Shown: one piece after another, positions 10,096 through 12,361 of the stretch
Position numbering within the stretch: position 1 is the first letter of the stretch
Layout: every line of letters begins with the position of its first letter
Source of the DNA: Planctomycetaceae bacterium
Lineage (GTDB): Bacteria > Planctomycetota > Planctomycetia > Planctomycetales > Planctomycetaceae
Direction of reading: 5' to 3'
DNA: 64,000 nt
Assembly: GCA_002726205.1 (NCBI GenBank)
Contig: PBSL01000016.1
Span: 40,673 to 104,672, forward strand
Made by a program: the position numbers and the translations under genes
Notes under the pieces: model-generated
What the model was told of the DNA's origin: nothing
The model's database searches: none
What the model saw: only the letters and a program-made list of their open reading frames with translations

Positions 10096-10875
10096 ATGCC
10101 CGAGAGCTGCTACGCCTATCCCCGGTACTGGGACCTCGCCTTCCGGGACGAAACGCCGCTGGAAGCCGATTTCGTCGATGCGGTGGCCGCGAAGTACTGC
10201 GACTTTCCGGTGCGCCGGGTCCTCGAACCAGGTTGTGGTGGTGGCCGGCTGGTGGTTGAACTGGCTTCACGAGGCTACGAAGTCACCGGTTTTGATCTCA
10301 GCACACCGGCCATCGACTACCTGAAGCGACGGCTGAAACGGCGAGGCCTGCGGGCCAACGTCTTCGAAGGCGACATGACGTGCGTGCAGATCGACCCGCC
10401 GGCCGACCTGGCCATCTGCCCGATGAATACGTTCCGGCACCTGCTGACCGAAGGCGACGCCCGGAACCATCTCGACGCGATCTCATCCAGCCTGCGGCCC
10501 GGCGGCCTCTACCTGCTGGGATTTCACCTGCTGCCACTGGACATCGACCCCGAGTCGTCCGAACGGTGGACGGCCCGGCATGGACGGACCCGTGTCACGT
10601 TTTCCCTGAAGGTGCTCGATTCGCAACGGCGGCGGCGGCTCGAAACGCTGCGGTTCCGACTCAACGTGACCAGTGGTCACGCCCGTCCCCGCCGCCTGGT
10701 GCTCGAGGACGAGTTTCCGTTGAGAATGTACACCGCGGCCCAGTTCCGCCGCCTGCTCGACTCGGTTCCCGGGTTGGAACTGCTCGACGTCTACGACTTC
10801 TGGTACGACATCGGTGATCCGCTCGTCCTCGACGACCGGATCACCGACACGATGTTCGTACTGCGAAAGCCATGA
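10096..10875 (+). CDS. Class I SAM-dependent methyltransferase
   Basis: A 259-residue cytoplasmic protein with a Rossmann methyltransferase core. Motif I is VLEPGCGGGRLVVELASRG (about residues 36-54), motif II ends VTGFDLS (56-62), the acidic post-II segment is VFEGDMTC (78-85), and motif IV is DLAICPMNTFRHL (92-104). The N-terminal YPRYWDLAFRDETPLEADF segment is typical of small-molecule methyltransferases. The start is 6 bases downstream of the UxuA-like stop, so the two are probably co-transcribed. The acceptor substrate cannot be inferred. The gene converges with the ARPP-1 gene, leaving 12 bases between stops. Confidence 0.88.
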   Translation: MPESCYAYPRYWDLAFRDETPLEADFVDAVAAKYCDFPVRRVLEPGCGGGRLVVELASRGYEVTGFDLSTPAIDYLKRRLKRRGLRANVFEGDMTCVQIDPPADLAICPMNTFRHLLTEGDARNHLDAISSSLRPGGLYLLGFHLLPLDIDPESSERWTARHGRTRVTFSLKVLDSQRRRRLETLRFRLNVTSGHARPRRLVLEDEFPLRMYTAAQFRRLLDSVPGLELLDVYDFWYDIGDPLVLDDRITDTMFVLRKP

Positions 10876-10887
10876 CACCAGGCGTTC

Positions 10888-11880
10888 CTACACGGCAACC
10901 TCGGCGGCAGCGCTGGTGTGCAGGGCAACACCGTTCCAGTACAGCGACGAGGCCGACAGGGTCAAAACGATCTCGGTGCGGAACTCGCGGCCCTCGCCCA
11001 CGGCCGGGGTTTCCTGCCACTGGACCTGGTCGAACTGTTCGAGGAACTCCTCGACCCGTCCCTGGTCGGGTCGATCCGGCACGAAACGTTCCTGCTGCAC
11101 GGGGCCGCCGACGGTGACCAGTTTGGCCCCGGCCCGCTGGCGGGATCGGCCGCGGCGCAACGCGTCCAGCCCATAGCCTCCCAGCAGCCGTGGCCAGGCC
11201 TGTTGACAGACCTCGTGAGAATCGAAGAGGTCCATCCCGAGAATTTCATCATCGATCGCGACAACCAGGCCCTCGGCACCCTTGGGCCACGGCAACTGCT
11301 CACGGAACTCCTGGATTCGCCGGGCGTACGCCAAAAACGAGTCCGACATTGCTCCGCTCGCCGAGCTCACCTTCATTTCCATCTGCTGCCTGGCGATGTC
11401 ATCCCAGACCTCGGCCTGATCCGAACGGTGACCTTTGCCCTGGCGAATCGACCGCATCACCGCCCTCTTCAGCTTTCGACGAAGGGTTGACGGTGACACG
11501 TGAGCCCCCGAACCGAACTTCTGTGACACGTCGTGCCAGCGGCCGGCCTCGATGCAGCTGACCGGAACCACGCAATCGGTGTTCGCCCCGACCAGGACCG
11601 TCGTGTTCAACACGCGATTCTGCTTCGCCCCGACCAACTCTTCTCCCTCGACAAACAGCACGGCCTGGTCGCCCCGGTTTCTTACGAGGAGATGTGGAAC
11701 CGACCCGGCACGATTGACCTCCTCGACATCCACCTGTTCCCGCTGCATCGCCTCGGCGGCCAGCAGATACTTTCTCGACCCCGCGACCTCATCACCGCGA
11801 TCACGTTTCAGGGGAAACACGGTCATGTTGTCGCAGGCCATCAATTCCAGTACCTGCACGTCACTGAAGACCTCACCCAT
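10888..11880 (-). CDS. ARPP-1 (DUF6569) family protein
   Basis: A 330-residue soluble protein without a signal peptide. The conserved block VPHLLVRNRGDQAVLFVEGEELVGAKQNRVLNT (about residues 61-93) followed by NTTVLVGA and VPVSCIEAGRW (about 104-114) is what I recognise as the ARPP-1 domain. This domain was named for association with ADP-ribosylglycohydrolase and phosphatase/rhodanese genes, and it has no firmly known activity. A second conserved region is EGLVVAIDDEILGMDLFDS (about 205-223). The start is well supported: ATG is preceded by a near-perfect ribosome-binding site (AGGAGGTGATC at about 6 bases), unusual among these genes. Two tandem palindromes lie 50-87 bases upstream, suggesting tight regulation. 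It is monocistronic and convergent with the methyltransferase. Confidence 0.8.
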   Translation of the reverse strand: MGEVFSDVQVLELMACDNMTVFPLKRDRGDEVAGSRKYLLAAEAMQREQVDVEEVNRAGSVPHLLVRNRGDQAVLFVEGEELVGAKQNRVLNTTVLVGANTDCVVPVSCIEAGRWHDVSQKFGSGAHVSPSTLRRKLKRAVMRSIRQGKGHRSDQAEVWDDIARQQMEMKVSSASGAMSDSFLAYARRIQEFREQLPWPKGAEGLVVAIDDEILGMDLFDSHEVCQQAWPRLLGGYGLDALRRGRSRQRAGAKLVTVGGPVQQERFVPDRPDQGRVEEFLEQFDQVQWQETPAVGEGREFRTEIVLTLSASSLYWNGVALHTSAAAEVAV

Positions 11881-11929
11881 CGATCACCTCCTGTTCGATA
11901 GCCACCGAGAACAGCCCGCGCGACGCTTC

Positions 11930-11967
11930 GTGTTTAATAAACACTTATGTTAGTGTCTACTATACAC
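11930..11967 (-). promoter_or_regulatory. Tandem palindromic operator upstream of ARPP-1 gene
   Basis: An AT-rich island in a GC-rich genome contains two 15-base palindromes. GTGTTTA-a-TAAACAC at 11930-11944 is perfect, with 7-base arms. GTGTCTA-c-TATACAC at 11953-11967 has one mismatched pair. Their centres are 23 bases apart, about two helical turns, and an ACACT...AGTGT inverted repeat spans the gap between them. The sites end 50 bases before the ARPP-1 start codon on the minus strand, where a promoter would lie. This is the layout of a cooperative dimeric repressor site. The cognate regulator is not in this window; an NrtR-like ADP-ribose/NAD regulator would fit the gene family but is a guess. 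Confidence 0.6.
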
Positions 11968-12044
11968 GGTCCGCGCGGATCGTCAAGCACCGTTGGCAGG
12001 TTACACGGCCGGGGCGGCGACTCCCGACTGACACATGTTCTCGG

Positions 12045-12067: not shown

Positions 12068-12141
<74 letters not shown>

Positions 12142-12361
12142 CTCTCGTTCTCCGTCGCATCCTGCCGCAACCCGTCGGCTTCCTGGCCAGCAACCAACTG
12201 ACCACAGGTGTCCATTGCCAGGGTGATGGCCGATGAAAGAGTCGAGGACCTGTTTGTATGGCGGCCACTTTGTCGTTGGAACTGGGATTCGTGCCGGCGG
12301 CAGGATGCGGGTATGATCACTGGCCAGACACCGGGATTTCTTTCGGCAAGGACCGGGACGG

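Follow-up and report, generated by a model that had tools for sequence, protein, structure and literature searches.

Two palindromes stand side by side just upstream of a gene of the ARPP-1 family in a planctomycete genome, and they raise the question of which regulator reads them and what that regulator might say about a gene for which no assigned activity was found.

The ARPP-1 promoter and its palindromes

The features of the locus, numbered within the window (the whole 64-kb stretch of DNA that was analysed), are the following.

10888..11880, minus strand: ARPP-1 (PF20208 / DUF6569) gene, 330 aa (Pfam, ORF list)
11883..11892, minus strand: ribosome-binding site AGGAGGTGAT, 2 bases 5' of the ATG (from the sequence)
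11927..11947, no strand: predicted NrtR box 2 (gene-proximal), 21-bp unit around GTGTTTAATAAACAC, 26.0 bits with a matrix from other genomes
11950..11970, no strand: predicted NrtR box 1 (distal), 21-bp unit around GTGTCTACTATACAC, overlapping the −10 element, 18.0 bits with the same matrix
11959..11964, minus strand: −10 element TATAGT, within box 1 (consensus scan)
11981..11986, minus strand: −35 element TTGACG (consensus scan)

The product contains the whole ARPP-1 domain (PF20208, Pfam E 1.7e-87, 294 bits against a cut-off of 27). The gene lies between a convergent methyltransferase gene (10096-10875, plus strand) and a divergent tRNA-Met gene (12068-12142, plus strand) and is probably a single-gene unit; a 21-base direct repeat is found just 3' of the tRNA-Met gene (window 12152-12195). 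A sigma-70-like promoter (TTGACG-16-TATAGT, 10/12 consensus) was the sole one in the 1.4-kb stretch scanned, and from its spacing we infer a transcript start near 11952, which would place the proximal 15-mer at about +9 to +23. The earlier note on this DNA had described two 15-base palindromes with GTGT and ACAC ends, one perfect and one with a single mismatch, whose centres are 23 bp apart, as well as a near-perfect ribosome-binding site before the gene. All of this was confirmed: the perfect palindrome GTGTTTAATAAACAC occupies 11930-11944, GTGTCTACTATACAC (one mismatched pair) occupies 11953-11967, and the ribosome-binding site is present as AGGAGGTGAT (11892-11883). The distal palindrome contains the −10 element and the proximal one follows the expected transcript start, an arrangement typical of operators bound by repressors. 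When the whole 64-kb window was scanned with the matrix, box 2 ranked first (26.0 bits) and box 1 second (18.0 bits), the next site elsewhere scoring 6.2 bits.

A second example of this arrangement was found in the planctomycete metagenome-assembled genome RS395, whose ARPP-1 protein (locus L028) is 55% identical to that of the window over its whole length and whose gene order, judged from translations and DNA, is the same (tRNA-Met sequence, ARPP-1, methyltransferase, UxuA-like TIM barrel). The ARPP-1 promoter of RS395 is TTGACC-17-TATTAT, with a promoter-like match on the opposite strand as well, and its palindromes, GTGTATTATACACAC and GTGTTTTAAGAACAC, are also 23 bp apart and cover the −10 element and the transcript start. 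Comparison by eye indicated that most of the non-tRNA upstream sequence around the palindromes has diverged and that the spacing has been kept. The two promoters together define the layout GTGT-N7-ACAC-N8-GTGT-N7-ACAC.

ARPP-1 loci in other genomes were collected by an alignment-based protein scan of genome contigs (a single-sequence scan matched nothing), and the best 80 of 546 confirmed matches were examined. Only one of these 80 named loci, L028 of RS395, has the operator site. The other 79 have no GTGT-N3to9-ACAC within 300 bp, with the exception of L088, where a shorter GTGT-N4-ACAC lies upstream of ARPP-1; distances run from where the protein match begins, the start codon being unproven, and five loci offer less than 300 bp of upstream sequence. 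GTGT-N7-ACAC was likewise absent from the upstream sequence (as much as 400 bp) of 18 relatives' ARPP-1 loci. These are what is left of 23 loci besides the window's own once L020, truncated at a contig end, and L023-L026, additional matches in the one genome G021, are set aside. Conservation of the site in orthologous promoters, which the earlier note had proposed as a test of its reading, therefore extends to RS395 only among the promoters examined. According to the record titles of the loci fetched, ARPP-1 is present in several phyla; one locus (L058) belongs to a metagenome bin that carries the name Klebsiella pneumoniae, probably through mislabelling.

Genes that follow the same layout in other genomes

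The further copies of the motif for which the earlier note would have had the genome scanned did not appear. In the 4.86-Mb genome to which the window belongs there is no second copy of the strict motif, either as GTGTYTANTAWACAC at up to one mismatch or in the wider form GTGTNTANTANACAC at 0 or 1. With up to two mismatches there were 16 matches per strand against 21 for the reversed pattern, and so no excess; RS395 gave 12 against 34. A looser tandem pattern with up to three mismatches yielded 14 sites in the window's genome against 4 for its reversal, among which only the ARPP-1 site had 0 mismatches and one other site had 2. Across the 397 genomes of the class the strict tandem motif occurred in the window's genome alone.

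The layout itself was found in 14 of the 397 class genomes (16 sites, six genera) and its reversal in 2 of 397. Excluding the window's genome and RS395 leaves 14 sites in 12 genomes and four genera, with eight of the 12 genomes in genus g38. Seven of these 14 outside sites, drawn from all four genera, precede genes for Nudix plus winged-helix (NrtR) proteins (L235-L238, L244, L253 and L254). The NrtR_WHD domain was recognised at about 1e-28 in all five that were run on Pfam (L236, L238, L244, L253 and L254), and the NrtRs of L235 and L237/L258 are 71-73% identical to that of L244. The remaining seven sites, spread over seven genomes of g38, precede members of one family of about 401 aa, recognised by their translations (L239-L243, L245 and L246; for example, the gene at L239:1592-2797 lies behind what would be a tandem NrtR operator). 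Two members of this family gave no Pfam match at 0.001 (for one at E≤1 the best value was 0.49) and one member gave no match in the PDB at 0.1; by eye the C-terminal half resembles a coiled coil. That half of the outside sites stand before an uncharacterised gene and that eight of the 12 genomes come from one genus were counted against an NrtR reading.

Alignment of the 14 outside sites revealed that the conserved unit is wider than the 15-mer, namely the 21-bp TTAGTGT-N7-ACACTAA. A held-out model built from these sites, with the window and RS395 excluded, was run on eight genomes (in four g38 genomes 150 of 394-632 first-look candidates were scored). At E-values up to 10 it matched nothing in the window's genome except the promoter of ARPP-1 (E 1.5e-6); its best match in RS395 was again the ARPP-1 promoter (1.1e-5), with the promoter of nrtR next (0.06). 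As the search pattern had been derived from the two ARPP-1 promoters, the test is independent in training, not in discovery; what stands independently of them is the identity of the genes downstream of the outside sites. Five further model sites had E-values of 0.14-0.7, three of them at places resembling the radical-SAM and pncB sites. Single boxes stand before pncB-like genes in four genomes (L272, L273, L275 and L276; PncB was identified by Pfam in G152, by tblastn in G263 and G359, and by eye in G101), and a single NrtR box stands before a radical-SAM gene in G152 (L270:1574-2947). Boxes scored in G101 and G119 lie at a similar distance from the nrtR locus as this radical-SAM box. Where the gene behind one of the other boxes can be identified, it is mostly nrtR or a gene of NAD salvage.

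At the level of sequence, then, the case comprises a shared operator, a conserved layout and a single detected NrtR with a box of its own, and we consider it very probable that NrtR is the repressor of ARPP-1 and that the palindromes form its tandem operator. Against this count, besides the points on the outside sites, the weakness of the box before the nrtR gene of the window's genome, the missing site at all other ARPP-1 loci examined save that of RS395, and the failure to find NAD genes near this nrtR or an ADP-ribosylglycohydrolase in the genome. The earlier note had guessed at an ADP-ribose- or NAD-responsive, perhaps NrtR-like repressor, and the same architecture before nrtR and pncB-like genes in other planctomycetes, together with the one NrtR of the window's genome and the box in its promoter, makes NrtR a well-supported choice. 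At least 120 viral stretches (e.g. L117, L145, L151, L174 and L180) contain the 38-bp layout as well, several of them as two copies 45-54 bp apart; the viral occurrences are perhaps phage operators, perhaps chance plus composition.

Other readers of the palindromes have to be weighed against NrtR. A palindrome of the 7-1-7 type is typical also of the TetR, FUR and WYL families, and together with the weakness of the box before the nrtR gene of the window's genome this might favour a repressor of one of those types, the likeness to NrtR boxes being coincidental; the E-values of the held-out model and the seven of 14 outside sites that lie directly before nrtR nevertheless make such a repressor improbable. 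That the palindromes arose by chance in an A+T-rich promoter has next to no probability in our estimate. Their absence from every other ARPP-1 promoter examined, RS395 aside, would fit with chance, but dinucleotide shuffling of the 280 bp upstream, repeated 20,000 times, produced at least one GTGT-N7-ACAC in 78 cases and the tandem in none, and RS395 preserves the spacing despite surroundings that, by eye, have diverged. Equally negligible is control by deoxynucleotide supply through NrdR, for which the ACAC-N8-GTGT between the palindromes would supply the boxes: the middle 16 bases on the gene strand, ACACTAACATAAGTGT, do resemble the NrdR box, but the window's genome gave 0 ATP-cone matches where 12 of 14 control genomes do match, and NrdR was rejected.

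NrtR of the window's genome and its ligand

The genome of the window encodes one NrtR. It lies on contig 69 and shares 61% identity with the NrtR used as query (Pfam NUDIX 2.1e-21, NrtR_WHD 1.5e-24). The earlier note's further suggestion, a regulator gene with the same site in its own promoter, holds in so far as a box is present, but this box is single and weak. It scores 14.2 bits over the −10 of the nrtR promoter (TTGACC-18-GACAAT), a score of at least 14.1 being expected by chance in simulated sequence at 1.7e-4 per 300 bp or about 2.7 per genome, and it was not reported when the held-out model was scanned at E≤10. The nrtR promoter of RS395 carries boxes of 25.8, 21.2 and 13.0 bits. The system resembles the regulons of NrtR (Nudix-related transcriptional regulator of NAD metabolism), a repressor that in other bacteria responds to products of NAD breakdown, in having a Nudix plus winged-helix regulator, a box in the regulator's own promoter and a palindrome with a 7-bp spacer; mycobacterial NrtR is described in PMC6800001 as an auto-repressor whose binding site is GTTTTCGA-N7-TCGAAAAC and which ADP-ribose (at 50 mM as printed) releases. 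According to PMC4666351, motifs of the NrtR family differ between lineages and the ligands include ADP-ribose, NAD and arabinose, the arabinose sensor being AraR of Bacteroides, a member of the NrtR family with tandem 21-bp sites.

A sequence search of solved structures with the NrtR of the window's genome gave BtAraR as the closest relative (1.2e-50), followed by NrtR of Shewanella oneidensis (5.8e-28). The DKRNFRKK of the winged-helix domain is invariant in eight of eight aligned NrtRs. The Nudix box of the window-genome NrtR has a one-residue insertion which, among the eight, is found otherwise only in RS395, with the REUXEEXGU part kept, so that the two NrtRs with the extra residue are those of the genomes with a boxed ARPP-1:

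L250:5515-6213: NrtR with extra Nudix-box residue
L251:4557-5297: NrtR with extra Nudix-box residue

The other six have the canonical Nudix signature and might therefore combine hydrolase activity with repression.

The surroundings of nrtR differ between genomes. In G152 and G263 the locus has pncB, nadE, ADP-ribosylglycohydrolase, pncA, kptA and NADAR, in G359 all but NADAR, and in G101, G119 and G285, where the stretches are shorter, part of the set; judged by position, a box lies between nadE and nrtR in relatives' loci with pncA, kptA and ADP-ribosylglycohydrolase. Boxes in these places and before pncB are as in NrtR regulons. Neither in the window's genome nor in RS395 did the 12 kb surrounding nrtR yield any of the six genes. 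In the window's genome 10 ORFs were called in these 12 kb, of which the four run on Pfam proved to be nrtR, PDZ, FG-GAP and alcohol dehydrogenase, with no arabinose gene among them. The window's genome thus departs from an NrtR regulon in that its nrtR lies apart from NAD genes and its strongest site is at ARPP-1, not at an NAD biosynthesis gene. From AraR, which controls arabinose genes, it departs in that none was recognised among the nrtR neighbours run; the likeness lies in the family and in the tandem 21-bp sites (3 bp apart in most AraR genomes according to PMC4666351, 2 bp here).

ADP-ribosylglycohydrolase had 0 matches in the window's genome, which is 96% complete. In a set of 46 genomes in all it was found in 13 of 17 ARPP-bearing relatives and in 15 of 21 without ARPP, that is, with no difference, and the remaining genomes gave 0 matches (the window's), 1 (RS395) and 6 of 6 (genomes with NrtR boxes). 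In the flanks of 104 ARPP-1 loci it occurred in 8 and NrtR in 0 (raw counts; flank lengths vary and some places are counted twice), and in L030 it lies directly upstream of ARPP-1 (Pfam E 8.9e-72).

Given the operator and its repressor, ADP-ribose is the likely ligand; but as the window-genome NrtR is closest among solved structures to AraR and has the Nudix-box insertion, the ligand may have changed. An unlikely variant, which shares with the NrtR-operator reading the control of ARPP-1 by NrtR, would have the Nudix domain drifted to another sugar or nucleotide and ARPP-1 acting on that compound. BtAraR as best solved match, the insertion in both NrtRs of genomes with a boxed ARPP-1, the detachment of nrtR from NAD genes and the occurrence of ARPP alongside polysaccharide deacetylase described in section 3.8 of PMC9503650 all speak for it; they are set against the retention of the REUXEEXGU of the Nudix box, the presence of the same box in relatives before NAD genes or in NAD/ADP-ribose loci, and the ADP-ribosylglycohydrolase in the flanks of eight of 104 ARPP-1 loci.

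Proposed control of ARPP-1 and the protein itself

With NrtR as reader and ADP-ribose as the most likely signal, the following mechanism may be proposed. Dimers of NrtR would bind the two neighbouring 21-bp boxes (TTAGTGT-N7-ACACTAA), cover the −10 element and transcript start and so silence ARPP-1. A ligand derived from NAD, ADP-ribose being the most likely, would fill the Nudix pocket as it builds up, whereupon NrtR would leave and ARPP-1, helped by its strong ribosome-binding site, would be made in quantity. ARPP-1 would then act on ADP-ribose or on a ribose product of it. More tentatively, the NrtR switch of this planctomycete lineage may have changed its targets: genes for NAD salvage and ADP-ribosylglycohydrolase would have dropped out of the local regulon, leaving ARPP-1 as the principal output and the response to free ADP-ribose confined to one gene; if this doubtful proposal is true, ARPP-1 is an ADP-ribose-handling enzyme with no clear structural relative in the searches run. 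The previous link between ARPP-1 and ADP-ribose rested on gene neighbourhood, and an operator in common with an NAD/ADP-ribose sensor would be independent evidence in a genome that lacks this neighbourhood. With a ligand class, a repressor and a promoter fragment named, the function of this orphan gene becomes testable.

Iyer et al. (2022; PMC9503650, section 3.8) describe predicted anti-ADP-ribosylation systems that are centred on ADP-ribosylglycohydrolase and have regulators of Nudix or WYL type; there ARPP is predicted to be an enzyme with conserved Cys and Gln that acts on ribose derived from ADP-ribose. The ARPP domain, the Nudix-type regulator and the ADP-ribose theme are common to those systems as there described and to the present one, and the nrtR-ADP-ribosylglycohydrolase-pncA-kptA loci of relatives fit the description. 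Unlike them, the ARPP-1 gene of the window stands alone, on another contig than nrtR and linked to it by the operator only, in a genome with no detectable ADP-ribosylglycohydrolase.

In an alignment of 50 rows the Cys and Gln of the family (C109 and Q87 in the window's protein) and 13 further positions are invariant, and ARPP-1 is accordingly treated as a predicted Cys/Gln enzyme whose activity is a prediction from sequence. The AlphaFold model has a pLDDT of 91.5 and a pTM of 0.90. No match at E≤0.001 was obtained with it in Foldseek, the best Z in VIA-align was 5.5 over 68 residues (mainly residues 36-129 were tested), and a sequence search of solved structures gave nothing better than E 0.5, so that, with no clear structural match, no fold was assigned. 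A search of NCBIfam gave no match at 0.001, and in the literature search no paper named DUF6569 and none had 'ARPP-1' and 'ADP-ribosylglycohydrolase' together. In two loci (L014:787-2457 and L022:868-2478) a HIRAN domain (Pfam 9e-20 and 9e-15) precedes ARPP-1 within one fused protein, the pair being reported as a two-gene neighbourhood in section 3.8 of PMC9503650.
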